Below are positions 94 through 55,531 of a DNA stretch of 64,000 nucleotides, one piece after another (position 1 is the first letter of the stretch; each line of letters opens with the position of its first letter). A model generated the notes under the pieces. That model was not told where the DNA came from and did not search any database. It worked only from the letters and a program-made list of their open reading frames with translations. Both the position numbers and the translations under genes were made by a program. Source of the stretch: Myrmaecium sp. VS I D KN 1. Its lineage: Eukaryota; Ascomycota; Dothideomycetes; Valsariales; Valsariaceae. The stretch lies in NCBI GenBank assembly GCA_019775845.1, contig JADQAV010000009.1, positions 744,001 through 808,000 on the forward strand, written 5' to 3'.

Positions 94-572
94 ACGTACT
101 TTGAATGGAAGTCTTGGGAGTTTATGGATGAGAAGGAGATCTTCGCGTCCACAGAGGACACTCTTACCACGATCATCGGTCCGTATGTAGTAGGTATACA
201 GAGTCACTATACAGAGTCGTCACCGTAGAAACTCTACTGCCATAGTTGCTAAGAAGTGTATAATAGCAGCAATCCATCTCTCCATACAGTTTACAATTCG
301 CACAACGTGATACATTGTCCCTTTTCCCCAGAAACTACACGCTCATGATAGCCTTCCCAGTCGGCTTCACCACCTTATGGGATGATGAGCGAGAGAGAGG
401 CAGTGGGGATCCGGCCATAGTTCGGCCACGCTATAGGGGTGGGGTGGGTGGGTGGAGTAATGGACGATAGAAATCAACAAACACAATCACCTATTCACTA
501 GTATACAAACAACAATGCAACATGAACGCTTTGTGTCTAACCAATCCGATGGCACACATCTCCTCACAATTG
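94..572. other. intergenic, no gene seen
   Basis: There is no convincing coding frame and no RNA gene here. A short G-rich stretch (GGGGTGGGGTGGGTGGGTGG) lies near 436-455, just upstream of the tRNA-Ala 5' exon. Confidence 0.5.
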
Positions 573-715
573 GGGCGTGTAGTAAGTTTCACTCACACAG
601 GAATTGAGTATTCCCTTGTCCGTCTGAGACTGACTCTCTTCTTCTTCATCAGGCTCAGTGGTAGAGCGCCCGCTTTGCATGCGGGAGGTCCAGGATTCGA
701 TCTCCTGCCCGTCCA
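573..715 (+). tRNA. tRNA-Ala(UGC) with a 71-nt spliceosomal-type intron between positions 9 and 10
   Basis: Bases 653-715 give a full D arm, an anticodon arm (stem CCCGC/GCGGG, loop TTTGCAT, anticodon TGC), a five-base variable region, a T arm (CAGGA/TCCTG around TTCGATC), the 3' acceptor strand CCCGTCC and discriminator A. No 5' acceptor strand lies directly upstream. At 573-581 is GGGCGTGTA, the usual fungal tRNA-Ala 5' end including T8-A9. It is followed at once by GTAAGT (582-587), a CTGAC branch motif (630-634), a pyrimidine tract and CAG ending at 652. Removing 582-652 gives a 72-nt cloverleaf with box A restored (TAGCTCAGTGG) and the G3-U70 pair that identifies alanine tRNA. One acceptor pair (T6/C67) is mismatched. 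Known eukaryotic tRNA introns lie at 37/38 and are cut by the SEN endonuclease; the position and signals here differ. A dead or 5'-truncated tRNA is the alternative. Confidence 0.7.
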
Positions 716-723
716 GTCCTCTC

Positions 724-733
724 TTTTTTTTTT
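724..733 (+). terminator. Pol III terminator of tRNA-Ala(UGC)
   Basis: A run of ten T starts eight bases after the discriminator base of the tRNA, which is the usual RNA polymerase III stop. It supports transcription of the 3' part by Pol III, even though the 5' exon lies unusually far upstream of box A. Confidence 0.75.
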
Positions 734-1482
734 GTCTCTCTCTCAACCTCTTGTAGAGGTTGATTTTTTTCTCGATCGACGGTTCTTCCCTCTTGTCTTG
801 GTCGTGCGACAGTATGTTTGTGGGTTTTCTTGTCGTCCTTTCCATTGCATTTTTTGTCTCTTCGTTTTTTTTTCTCTCTTTCTTTTTGGTTAAGAGTTTT
901 TTCTTTCTGTGCTGTCAGCTTCAATTGAGAGATCAAGTCAATAAGTAAGTGAGTGAGTGTTTCGAGAGTAGAGCCCAACTGCCATCTTCCTCTCACTTCT
1001 TACTTCAAGGAAATCAAAGAAAACTGGACGTTATAGATAGAAGGCAGGTTAATCGTTTCTCAGTGAGCACACGAGTTAGCTCTCTAGCTCAGGTTGACAC
1101 TGCGATGTGAAACCTCTTCCAGGCTGTGTGTGTATGAACAAGTCGCTTTCATGCGCCGATATAATGTGAATTGGAGTCTGCTAGGCCAGGCCGTCATGGT
1201 TGCTGTTTACGTGAAGTGCCGACGAGGCCATATACGATCCTACTTCACAGTCGCATGGTTTCACGGTCTGGTCGCTCGCCACATGGGTGCGTATCTAATT
1301 TCACCGCGACACCGCCTTTTTGGATTCTTACATACATGGCTACCTAAGCATATAAAAGGCCATCGAAACATCATTTTCGGGGAAATCAACAGAACACATC
1401 ATTCCTTTTGCGGATCTCTTTTTCTTGAAGTTAAAAGGGAAGTGCCTACTCACGTTTTAGTTCTTTGTTTACGCAAAGCGAG
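734..1482. other. intergenic, T-rich then promoter of the next gene
   Basis: The first 200 bases are rich in T and CT tracts. The rest holds no believable gene; longer open frames on both strands have no codon or family signal. A TATA box near 1351 marks the promoter of the gene at 1483. Confidence 0.5.
1351..1358 (+). promoter_or_regulatory. TATA box
   Basis: TATAAAAG lies 132 bp before the ATG at 1483, a sensible distance for a fungal core promoter. Confidence 0.5.
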
Positions 1483-8868: not shown

Positions 8869-8940
8869 TGGACTTGCCCGGAATCGAACCGGGGACCTCT
8901 TCCATGCTAAGGAAGCATTATACCACTAAACCACAAGCCC
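8869..8940 (-). tRNA. tRNA-Ala(AGC)
   Basis: A 72-nt cloverleaf on the minus strand with a fully paired acceptor stem (GGGCTTG/CAAGTCC, including the alanine-specific G3-U70 pair), anticodon loop TTAGCAT (anticodon AGC), a good B box (GGTTCGATTCC) and discriminator A. It has no intron. It serves as an internal comparison for the interrupted tRNA-Ala(UGC) at 573-715. Confidence 0.95.
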
Positions 8941-26824: not shown

Positions 26825-28966
26825 CTATCGTTTTGTCCTCATCTTGTAGTACTCCGGTGCGTACTCAAGCAGCCATTCCTTTTCGATTTTAGTAATGTCC
26901 CGGATATAAGTCTTGTTCCCCGTATCCATGACTTCGTGGAAGACGACCCAGTTCGCCTTTCGATTCTGCAAAGAGAGTCAGTCAAGTCACTGCAGTGGCC
27001 ATGAAATACTTACAAACATCAGTGAACTCGGATGTGCATACAAGGTGGTGCCTCCGTCAACTGTCTTAAAGCTTCCGTCTGGTTGCATTACGGCCGCATG
27101 CGCAAAATAACCAGCAGTCAAGCATCGCCGTATCTTCTCAGCCGTGTCTATACCACCTGCTCTAGTAATGTCTGGCGCACTCAAGCTTTCGTTGACATCG
27201 ATACCAAAGCGTTCCAGATACTTGCGCAGCTGATTCCTTACAGACACAGCTCGGCTCAAGCTCTTGAAGTTAAGATAATTATCGCGGCACCATTTAGGAT
27301 CCTTTTTGCCCTTGGTCACGAAAGCATGGTAAACATTAAGGAGCGTTAGATGATCGCCCTCTTCGGTGGCAAACTTGCGTCTTGCACTCTGCTGAGCATT
27401 TTTCTCGCCTTCGTGATGGAACCACACTGAACCCTGAAGGGAGGTCATTGCTGTTATACTCAGAATTTCGCTCAAGACACCGAACGTAGGTGCCGTCAGC
27501 AATACCTTTGCCATCATGGGCTCCACGGCGAGCTCGGCCATACGCAGACCAAGTGGACGGGTTAGCTTTGCATAGTCGTCTAAAGCACCAAGGCTATAGA
27601 GAAGTTCCAGGCCTCGTACAACCAGTTCATATGGAGGAGGGGTGAAGAACTCCCATTTGGCGATGTTGTCAATACCCAAGGCCTTCAGCTGAAGAATGAC
27701 GGGGGCAAGGTTGGAACGCTGGATCTCCGGAACAGTGGAATCGGGCAGCCTCTGATACGCATCCTCGGTGTACAAGCGATAGCATTTGCCTGGCTTGGTT
27801 CTGCCAGCCCTTCCGGCCCGCTGGGTTGCGGAGGCCTTTGAAACTGGCACTGCCGTCAGTGTCTCAATACCAGTGTTTGGATTGTAGGCGCGAAGCTTTA
27901 CAAAGCCGCAGTCGATGACAAATGAGACCCCGTCAATGGTCACTGAGGCTTCGGCGATATTGGTGGACAGGATGACCTTGCGAGTATTCTGCGCCGCAGG
28001 CTCAAAGACATACATCTGTTGCTCCGTAGACAAACCAGCGTACATCGGAAGAGGTTGAAGGGTTGCCTTGTTGGGATTCCAGGACATCGTCTCATCCGCG
28101 ATTTTTTGCATTGCTCTCTCGATTTCCTCTCTCCCTGTTAAGAAAACCAGGATATCTCCTTCGGCTTCCTTTTCGTGGATGTCGAGCGCAGTCTGGACTG
28201 CCTTGTCAATGTAGTCTTCACAAGGCTGCTTGAGGTAATGGATGTCCACGGGATACATTCTGCCCTCCAGGCTCACAATGCGACTAACATTGCCGCCCAT
28301 ACTTTCTTGGTCCCCACCCTCGACAAAAGCGTCATCAGCGAAGAAGCGAAGAAAAGCTTCAGCATCCAATGTGGCACTGCTGATGATGATTCGAAGCTCC
28401 GGGCGCTTTTTCCGGATTTTTTTGAGTAGGCCTAGCAAGATGTCGGTACTGAGAGATCTCTCGTGCGCTTCATCCACCATGATTATGGAGTATTTGGAGA
28501 GAAGCGGATCTACAAGGAACTCCCGTAATAGTAATCCGTCAGTGAGGAACTTGATGCGAGTCGCTTCGGACGTCGCATCTTCAAATCGTATCGAATACCC
28601 AACCTCTTGACCAACCTTACAGTTCATCTCTTCAGCTACTCTGATGGCAACTGTAGTGGCGGCCACCCGACGAGGCTGCAGATGTCCGTTAGCAGTCCTG
28701 GAGATTTTCGCTGCGGACGCGGGTATCGACTAACCCACCTGAGTGATAGCAATCTGTTTTCTTTGAGCGCACCATCCTGCCTGGTCAAGATATTGTGGCA
28801 GCTGGGTTGTCTTGCCGCTACCTGTCTGGCCAACAACGATGGTCACTGGATATGTCTCGATCGTGTAAAGCAAAGCTTCTTTGTGCAATGCGATAGGTAG
28901 TAGAGCCGGATTCTTGTAAAGGGCCGGGATGAAGGCACCCCCGACATCAGCCTCCCCTTCCGCCAT
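26825..28966 (-). CDS. DEAH-box RNA helicase, DHX35 ortholog
   Basis: Three exons on the minus strand, 28966-28739, 28675-27014 and 26965-26825, encode 676 aa; introns are 63 and 48 nt. Walker A GQTGSGKT is at residues 46-53, DEAH at 144-147, SAT at 176-178, and motif VI QRAGRAGR at 361-368. The helicase-associated and OB-fold regions follow. The last exon restores the conserved C-terminus (RKANWVVFHEVMDTGNKTY and WLLEYAPEYY). The first exon starts just before the helicase core, as in human DHX35. It probably acts on spliceosomal or other nuclear RNA; DHX35 relatives are present in intron-rich fungi but missing from baker's yeast. Other DEAH proteins (Prp2/16/22/43) have longer N-termini or different C-terminal blocks. 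Confidence 0.9.
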
Positions 28967-53263: not shown

Positions 53264-55531
53264 TTAAGCCGTCTCCTTCTTCCGCGTACGACGCGCCATC
53301 CGTTTCCTCGCAATGATCTGCTGCCGCTTCGCCTGCTTCTCATCCTTGACCGCCGCGCCCGACTTCGCCGAGGAAGAAGCGGGAGCCGTCTCCTCCTCCC
53401 GCTCCTCCCGCTTGCGCTTCCCACCCGGACCACCACCAGCGCCCCGCTCCGCCTCACCCCGCTTCCCTCCCCGCCGACGCTCGGCCTTGCTCGGCTTCGG
53501 CGCCGGCTTGAACCCTTCCCGGGCGTGCTCGCGCATCTTGGCCTCCTTCTCCAGCCGCCGGTGCACCACCTGGGCGTTCTCGATCGCGAACTCGACCAGG
53601 AGGCGCTTCTTGCGGTCCTGGACGTCGTCGGCGCTCGGGACGGCACCCGGGCGCGCGGAGGAGGAGGAGGCGGCGGCCAGGGTGCGGTAGTCGATCGCGT
53701 GACCGTTGAGCCAGCGGAGGCCCATGAGGGCGTGGCGGTGGGTGTAGTACTCGACGAAGCCGTAGCCGCGGCTGCGGCCGGCGCCGGACCGCTCGTCGAC
53801 CTTGGTGCCCGTCTTCGTCTCGAAGACGATCTTGGCCTGCTTGACGACGCCCTTGCCGCGGGCGCGCCGCTGCCGCTCCGCCTCCCGCTCCGTCTCCCCG
53901 CCCCGGGCCCGCTCCTCGGCCGACAAGGGCTGCCGCTTGCCTTCCTTGACGTCCTTGGCGAAGCCGACGACGGCCTGCCGCGCGAGCGCCTTCAAGTCCT
54001 TGGACGTCACGCTCCGCGGGATGTTCCGGACCGAGAGCCGGGTCAGGCTGAGGTGGAGGGACGGGTTCGACTGGATGAGCTGCTTGCGCTGCTTCACGCT
54101 CGCCTCGCGCAGCGTGATCTCGGCCGGGGAGAGCAGCTGGTAGAGCGGCGAGTTGGAGGCGATGGTGCCCTCGGAGAGGAGGTACAGCCGGCGCTTGTCT
54201 GTGTCGCGCGCGAACCGGTTCGCCGCCCCTTCCTCCGTCAGCCGGGCCGCCTCGTTCCGGTCGACGGCGCGGGTCACCTGCAGCACCCGGCCGTCCATCG
54301 TGTACCGGCCTTCGGGGTCGTCATCGACATTCTGCAGGATCGAGTGGACGGCGTGGACACCGCCGGCGTCCTTTTTCGCCTTGTGCGCCGGTTGGCTGTT
54401 CGCCGGGCGGGGGGCGCCTTTCAAGCAGGCATCCGCGTCCTCCTTCGAGTAGAAGCACACGAAGCCGGTGCCGCGGGGCCGCTCCGTGGCGTGGTCCATA
54501 ACAATCCTCGCGTAGCGGACGCCGCCGAAAGCCTGGAAGTGATCGTGCAGCTGCTCGTCGTCGCAAGTGAACGGTAGGTTTCTGATGAAAAGGGTGCTCT
54601 CGTTATTGTTTTGTCGGTGTTTCGGCTCCTCCTCCTCGGCCTCCTCATCATTCTCCCAATCCTCCTCATCTTCCTCTTCCTCCTCGTCTTCGTCTTCATC
54701 ATCGTCTGTAGCGTCGTCATCGTCGTCCTCGGAACCTCCAGACTGTGCAGCCTCCTCCTCTTCAGCACCTTCCTTATCCTCTCCAGCTTCTTCCTCTTGC
54801 GGCGCGTTCTTCTGCAGGTTTTCCCAAGTGTCCTTGTCCACCGCCCAATCGACTGCCAGTTGACGGCCATCCAACTCCTTGCCATTGACACCCTCGATGG
54901 CCTTCTCGGAGTTCTTACGACCTCTGATCGTGACAAAGCCGAACCCTGCCAGAAGCCCCGGCTTCTTCGTCGGAAGCTTCACGTCCTTGACTTTGCCATA
55001 GCTCCTGAACAGGTCGGCCAGCTGCTCTGGCTTCTTGATCGTCCAAGGCAGGTTGCGCACGATTAGCCTCGGGGGCGGCTGGCGAGCGGCAAGCTTCTCC
55101 TGCTCCCTCTTCACCTTTTCCTCCGCGGCCGCTCCCGGATCAGACTCCCTGTGCCTGGGCTGGGCGATATCGACCCGGATCTTCCGGCCCTTCAACTCCG
55201 AGTCGTTGAACTCTTCCAGAGCGCGCTGAGCATCTTCGATATCGGCGAAGGTAACGAAGCCGTAACCCTTGCATTGTTTCGTGGCGGGGTCGATGACGGC
55301 CGTGGCGTGCTTGATCGGGTACGATTGCGAGAAATGCTCGGTGAGGTCCTCAGTCGTCACGGTGGGAGCGAGCGAGCGGACGAAGAGTTGGCGGCGATGC
55401 TTCTGATCCTTGTGAGCCTCGGCGGGAGGGTCCTCGGCCAAAGCCTGCTTGACTTCGGCCGACACGACGTCCGCGATGGCATTCTCCGCCCCTTCCAGGG
55501 AAAGGCGCTGTCTCTTGTGTCGATGGCTCAT
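53264..55531 (-). CDS. nop4: nucleolar RNA-binding protein Nop4 (RBM28-like)
   Basis: An intronless 755-aa protein with four RNA-recognition motifs. RRM1 is at about 48-125 (LFVRSLAP and KGYGFVTF), RRM2 at about 155-235 (RLIVRNLPW and GFGFVTIRG), RRM3 at about 315-420 (TLFIRNLPF and GTGFVCFYS), and a degenerate RRM4 starts near 500 (SVRNIPRSVTSKDL, later YGFVEYY). A very acidic stretch of Asp/Glu (about 265-310) separates RRM2 from RRM3. The C-terminus is strongly basic (KRKREEREEE, then RKRMARRTRKKE), fitting nucleolar localisation. Yeast Nop4 is essential for 27S pre-rRNA processing and 60S assembly. The order of domains and the length match the family. Confidence 0.9.
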   Translation of the reverse strand: MSHRHKRQRLSLEGAENAIADVVSAEVKQALAEDPPAEAHKDQKHRRQLFVRSLAPTVTTEDLTEHFSQSYPIKHATAVIDPATKQCKGYGFVTFADIEDAQRALEEFNDSELKGRKIRVDIAQPRHRESDPGAAAEEKVKREQEKLAARQPPPRLIVRNLPWTIKKPEQLADLFRSYGKVKDVKLPTKKPGLLAGFGFVTIRGRKNSEKAIEGVNGKELDGRQLAVDWAVDKDTWENLQKNAPQEEEAGEDKEGAEEEEAAQSGGSEDDDDDATDDDEDEDEEEEEDEEDWENDEEAEEEEPKHRQNNNESTLFIRNLPFTCDDEQLHDHFQAFGGVRYARIVMDHATERPRGTGFVCFYSKEDADACLKGAPRPANSQPAHKAKKDAGGVHAVHSILQNVDDDPEGRYTMDGRVLQVTRAVDRNEAARLTEEGAANRFARDTDKRRLYLLSEGTIASNSPLYQLLSPAEITLREASVKQRKQLIQSNPSLHLSLTRLSVRNIPRSVTSKDLKALARQAVVGFAKDVKEGKRQPLSAEERARGGETEREAERQRRARGKGVVKQAKIVFETKTGTKVDERSGAGRSRGYGFVEYYTHRHALMGLRWLNGHAIDYRTLAAASSSSARPGAVPSADDVQDRKKRLLVEFAIENAQVVHRRLEKEAKMREHAREGFKPAPKPSKAERRRGGKRGEAERGAGGGPGGKRKREEREEETAPASSSAKSGAAVKDEKQAKRQQIIARKRMARRTRKKETA

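Follow-up and report, generated by a model that had tools for sequence, protein, structure and literature searches.

Spliceosomal introns are reportedly present in the rRNA genes (rDNA) of ascomycetes, and the U2 gene of Rhodotorula is said to carry an intron of the mRNA type. U6 is a Pol III gene. An origin by reverse splicing has been proposed for the U6 intron (PMC10484740). Introns of nuclear tRNA genes generally lie at position 37/38 exclusively, where the tRNA endonuclease cuts, with exceptions such as the red alga Cyanidioschyzon, and noncanonical tRNA introns exist in archaea and in Cyanidioschyzon (both according to PMC3978253). Some species of Dothideomycetes have invading introner-like elements (PMC4457414). 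Of the open-licence papers listed, none described a tRNA gene with a spliceosomal intron in its title or opening abstract lines, and the accessible portion of a paper on nucleomorph genomes (PMC4494063) contains nothing on spliceosomal tRNA introns.

Here, we report a fungal tRNA-Ala(UGC) gene that is split between tRNA positions 9 and 10 by 71 nt; very probably, judging by its sequence, an intron of the spliceosomal type was inserted into the gene. The locus lies near the start of the window, by which we mean the whole 64,000-nucleotide stretch analyzed (C66:744001-808000), in an assembly of 25.66 Mb and 66 contigs. A NOP4-like open reading frame (ORF) of the window (53264-55531) has 52 to 62% identity to its relatives among the 120 matches listed, the best named of which include Coniosporium, Botryosphaeriales, and Glonium, and the window's DHX35-like ORF reaches up to 78% identity, with Saccharata among others. 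These protein relatives place the window within the Dothideomycetes or close to them.

The anatomy of the locus, in window coordinates and with the evidence for each feature in parentheses, is as follows.

573..581, + strand: exon 1, tRNA-Ala positions 1-9, GGGCGTGTA, comprising the 5' acceptor strand plus T8 and A9 (same as the first 9 nt of the paralog at C19:554081)
582..652, + strand: insert of 71 nt between tRNA positions 9 and 10, with features of a U2-type spliceosomal intron (absent from the paralog; signal statistics)
582..587, + strand: 5' splice site GTAAGT (sequence; same hexamer in the DHX35 intron at window 26966-27013)
630..634, + strand: branch-point-like CTGAC with its A at 633 (the sole CTRAY of the insert, whose A lies 19 nt ahead of the final intron base)
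635..652, + strand: tail of 18 bases, 15 of them pyrimidines, with the 3' splice site CAG at 650-652, the insert ending in TCAG (sequence)
653..715, + strand: exon 2, tRNA-Ala position 10 to the discriminator base, with anticodon TGC at 676-678 (RF00005; identity to the paralog)
651..661, + strand: box A in its interrupted form, AGGCTCAGTGG in place of TAGCTCAGTGG (sequence)
693..703, + strand: box B, GGATTCGATCT, including an A53-U61 pair common to the paralog (sequence; paralog)
724..733, + strand: T10 run, a Pol III-type terminator (sequence)
502..507, + strand: TATACA, a possible but weak upstream promoter element 65 nt before exon 1 (sequence alone, with no significance estimate attached)

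An earlier note, made from the letters of this DNA, had read the locus as a tRNA-Ala(UGC) gene split at 9/10, and every element was confirmed at the position claimed. Its further statement that the signals at 9/10 are spliceosomal and not of the tRNA type is well supported by the sequence, GTAAGT, CTGAC, the pyrimidine tail, and CAG all being present. The cut could sit one base later, because insert and exon 2 both start with G. The Rfam RF00005 match (41 bits, above cut-off) covers 652-707 alone, which are model positions 9-63 of 71, and ARAGORN called no tRNA gene at the interrupted locus. A permuted tRNA gene was ruled out, since the parts are in the order 5' then 3' and the 3' part does not precede the 5' part. 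The box A core, box B, and the terminator are intact, and the T10 run starts 8 nt downstream of the tRNA end. Nine bases past it, at window 743-763, a scan scored against shuffled sequence found a hairpin of 9 pairs with seven T behind it (1 site versus 0.8 in shuffles), which may be due to chance.

Removal of 582-652 from 573-715 gives a 72-nt tRNA-Ala(UGC) with the tRNA stems, anticodon TGC, and the G3-U70 alanine pair all present. A DNA search of the genome with this joined 72-mer returned two places, the interrupted locus and C19:554081-554176, an ordinary Ala(UGC) gene with a 24-nt intron in its anticodon loop. The two products are exactly identical (72 of 72 positions) once the latter intron is taken out; the 9-nt piece at 573-581 is therefore the correct 5' end. 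The sequence GGGCGTGTA itself was seen twice in 200 kb (100 kb, both strands), one occurrence being the interrupted locus, and inspection by eye of the insert beside position 10 gave no fitting alternative 5' acceptor strand.

The match to the paralog bears out the 72-nt tRNA with G3-U70 that the earlier note had obtained by removing the insert, and it lifts one of that note's warnings, the T6/C67 mismatch, which is not decay because the ordinary paralog has it too. The A53-U61 pair is likewise shared, so decay or misreading at both places was ruled out. The note had also asked for the number of other Ala(UGC) genes and had counted the existence of intact ones as one part of what would speak against it; a single one, C19:554081-554176, was found in the genome. 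The interrupted copy thus need not be essential.

A recent segmental duplication of the Ala(UGC) gene was rejected for want of a clear relation between the flanks of the two copies. The 200-nt flanks gave a score of 13 upstream (reached by 36 of 200 shuffles) and 11 downstream (191 of 200), and the nearest 40 nt gave 8 upstream (22 of 200) and 9 downstream (132 of 200). A retrocopy of a mature CCA-tailed tRNA was also rejected, as no CCA follows the discriminator base. Paralogs with identical bodies and differing introns are not unusual in this genome: the Glu(UUC) genes L033 and L086 have identical bodies once the 34-nt intron of L086 is removed. Two tRNA-Ala(CGC) genes (L074 and L075, C4:43920-44934) are oriented oppositely, with about 0.8 kb between them, and have anticodon-loop introns that differ in length; ARAGORN labels one of them Ser, and the Ala reading was taken from the sequence. 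The window itself also holds an uninterrupted tRNA-Ala(AGC) at 8869-8940 (- strand); the 61 loci fetched contain seven copies of this gene in all.

The signals of the insert sit exactly at its boundaries and at the usual distances: it contains a single CTRAY, and no AG occurs from the branch point to the terminal one. In splice-site ends, branch point distance, and length, the putative intron is of the U2 type. The full signal set (GTAAGT; a CTRAY whose A is 10-35 nt from the end; no AG between that CTRAY and the last AG; terminal YAG) was seen in 1 of 199,290 71-mers (100 kb of genome, both strands), which is the candidate, and with the looser GTRNGT in 3, the candidate among them. Against counts expected from resampled sequence, GTAAGT-CTRAY-YAG composites of 60-79 nt were in excess in the same 100 kb on both strands (8 observed, including the candidate, versus 1.5 expected), as were those of 40-120 nt (13 versus 5.1), and GTRNGT composites showed a slight excess (47 versus 39.8).

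The DHX35 gene of the window has a 48-nt intron (26966-27013) with GTAAGT on which the spliced alignments of two homologs agree, and its end, CTGACTCTCTTTGCAG, is close to the CTGACTCTCTTCTTCTTCATCAG of the tRNA insert; on a second DHX35 intron, the two homologs disagree. The 71 nt of the insert fall within the 60-79-nt range of composite excess, and the usual length range of introns here rests on few cases, since just the one 48-nt intron was fixed by two homologs. A codon-bias search for introns across the window, made ab initio, returned 83 clusters that were for the most part noise; it was left unused.

These counts bear on a chance origin, in which an unrelated piece of 71 nt broke into a tRNA gene and its likeness to an intron is accidental. 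Such a coincidence would fit with the intron being argued from sequence alone and with the failure to find a second case in the genome, but it would have to produce a signal set that no other of the 199,290 71-mers has and that only two others have with GTRNGT; we consider it very improbable. A DNA search of the genome, which skips simple repeats, gave no second match to the insert, and membership in an introner-like family was rejected because the 71 nt have no sequence relative there. Group I and group II introns were ruled out by the length of only 71 nt, and Rfam matches at gathering score over the window were the two tRNAs alone, with no ribozyme core.

Removal by the tRNA splicing endonuclease or another nonspliceosomal route has precedent in the noncanonical introns of archaea and Cyanidioschyzon. 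The insert lies at 9/10 and not at the 37/38 of the canonical nuclear (SEN-type) intron, the position to which PMC3978253 generally confines nuclear tRNA introns. One constrained fold, with the cloverleaf forced, gave no bulge-helix-bulge at either junction, and GTAAGT, CTGAC, and CAG would on this route be an accident, so that we regard it as extremely improbable. In the forced fold, 581-635 form an extended hairpin in which GTAAGT (582-587) pairs with the branch region, and 636-652 are free. That predicted pairing could hinder U1/U2 or could bring donor and branch together. Folded without constraints, the precursor reaches its energy minimum in a structure other than the tRNA shape, and the same holds for the joined 72-mer, which the paralog yields as well.

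In usual tRNA genes, TFIIIC and TFIIIB set the start a short way before box A. At the interrupted locus, the distance from box A to box B is unchanged, and box A is 71 nt further from tRNA position 1 than in an uninterrupted gene; the long 5' end-to-box A distance about which the earlier note had warned therefore stands as a warning. If TFIIIC sets the start here as in usual tRNA genes, Pol III initiation would fall within the insert, at the cost of exon 1, which is just 9 nt plus leader. Upstream profiles of 83 tRNA genes, in an alignment off by one base for some of them, showed the last few bases before position 1 to be G-poor and A/C-rich and contained no TATA-like element that could replace the displaced start signal. 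The TATACA at 502-507 is the sole candidate upstream element seen at the locus; a sigma-70 promoter scan of the window is not suited to a fungus. With box A displaced and no TATA-like element, the choice would be between Pol II, Pol III from an unusual start, and no useful transcript.

The last of these belongs to the main rival, in which a recent spliceosomal intron insertion silenced the gene, Pol III starts in the insert or nowhere, the paralog supplies the tRNA, and the exons are perfect through youth. The displaced box A, the lack of a common upstream element among tRNA genes here, and a second, ordinary gene able to supply the same tRNA speak for it. The absence of mismatches in 72 positions despite unrelated flanks and splice signals that resemble those of a working intron point the other way, both being compatible with a young insertion. 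We rate a silenced gene as unlikely, though as a contender to be taken seriously.

A transcript made by Pol II could alternatively use the tRNA pieces for another end: they would be the ends of a spliced noncoding RNA, or of a 3'-extended transcript of the upstream gene on this strand, and the tRNA would act as a processing signal rather than an adaptor. An ORF of 688 aa in this orientation does end at window 93, 480 nt upstream, and the signals of the insert are those of Pol II introns, but every tRNA position is kept, anticodon and G3-U70 included, and the T10 run follows 8 nt past the tRNA. This makes a processing signal highly unlikely.

We favor, at somewhat better than an even chance, the reading in which a nuclear tRNA-Ala(UGC) gene gained a 71-nt U2-type intron at 9/10 that is spliced by the spliceosome to a working tRNA. 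From the sequence, we infer the origin by intron insertion, the splicing, and the kind of polymerase. The intron would have been inserted at 9/10, with reverse splicing as the obvious route. The transcript would begin upstream of 573, made by Pol II or by Pol III from an upstream element; U1 would bind at 582, the branch would form at 633, and the spliceosome would ligate 581 to 653. RNase P, RNase Z, and CCA addition would then yield a tRNA that matches the paralog's product exactly; a Pol III transcript would terminate at the T10 run (724-733). Taken by itself, splicing of the insert to a working tRNA has an even chance or slightly more, and we hold it there because of the promoter problem and the spare paralog. 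We consider it evenly balanced whether the gene, with an mRNA-type intron outside the anticodon loop, needs the spliceosome for its tRNA to mature, and probably also a transcript that starts upstream or is made by Pol II.

The interrupted Ala(UGC) gene was the only truncated match among 62 tRNA matches, from an inventory in which 63 of 614 first-look candidates were scored. The other 61 matches comprised 60 tRNA genes by ARAGORN and one (L068) with a gap of N, and 20 further loci from the B-box matches listed comprised 18 tRNA genes and two that were not. Val(AAC/CAC), Pro, Trp, nuclear elongator Met, and some others were unseen in this scored inventory; because it is partial, another interrupted tRNA gene may exist, especially away from 9/10. 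For a second case at 9/10, a YAG-position 10-box A-box B pattern, which is blind to the candidate itself because of its U61, gave 20 matches versus 19 in reversed controls, none of them a tRNA by eye. A stricter box A with U61 allowed gave 3 matches versus 6 in controls: the candidate itself and two more that were not taken for tRNAs. A GTAAGT-initiated pattern was far too loose (at least 130 matches versus at least 246 in reversed controls).

No comparable intron was seen in the other Pol III genes examined, the U6 and 5S matches scored. The sole strong U6 match was contiguous over the model and a second was under cut-off (best 47 of 1268 candidates scored); among the 5S matches, 33 of 37 reached at least 83 bits and the 4 weak ones hold runs of N (best 47 of 1662 scored). 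The U6, 5S, and tRNA searches are incomplete, since the best candidates alone were scored. The interrupted gene was not matched in GTDB or among viral contigs, which is unsurprising for collections without fungi.

Two further observations were made on the Pol III genes of this assembly. Short runs of N occur in the Cys tRNA gene L068 (C1:70996-71066) and in four 5S genes (L108-L111), and repeats such as these seem to break the assembly. At four loci (L015, C10:303913-304584; L018, C6:273092-273763; L019, C7:81857-82528; L020, C34:195488-196159), a tRNA-Gln(CUG) gene and a tRNA-Phe(GAA) gene stand in that order, 15-33 nt apart and with no T-run separating them, an arrangement suggestive of a repeated dicistronic Gln-Phe unit.

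If the favored reading is true, two splicing systems can trade substrates, the spliceosome maturing a tRNA precursor, and a further Pol III-class gene, beside U6, has accepted an mRNA-type intron. It would also bear on the birth of new spliceosomal introns, because the insertion site is in a highly constrained RNA and not in coding sequence. Were the gene dead, it would still be a case of intron insertion into a noncoding target with an uninterrupted twin for comparison.

Like the canonical 37/38 intron, which the Ala(UGC) paralog carries, the insert lies within a nuclear tRNA gene, but it differs in its site at 9/10, its 71 nt, its GT-AG ends and branch point, and its junctions, where no bulge-helix-bulge was found. 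In Cyanidioschyzon and archaea, noncanonical and permuted tRNA genes are likewise interrupted outside the anticodon loop (PMC3978253); those carry a bulge-helix-bulge, whereas the Ala(UGC) locus has the normal order of pieces and spliceosomal signals. The introns of ascomycete rDNA are also spliceosomal and outside protein genes but occur in rRNA and not in tRNA genes. The U6 snRNA gene of Schizosaccharomyces pombe likewise has an mRNA-type, spliceosomal intron in a short noncoding RNA gene, an insertion that is explained by U6 RNA being part of the spliceosome. The Ala(UGC) locus encodes a tRNA instead, and its insert separates the expected start from box A.
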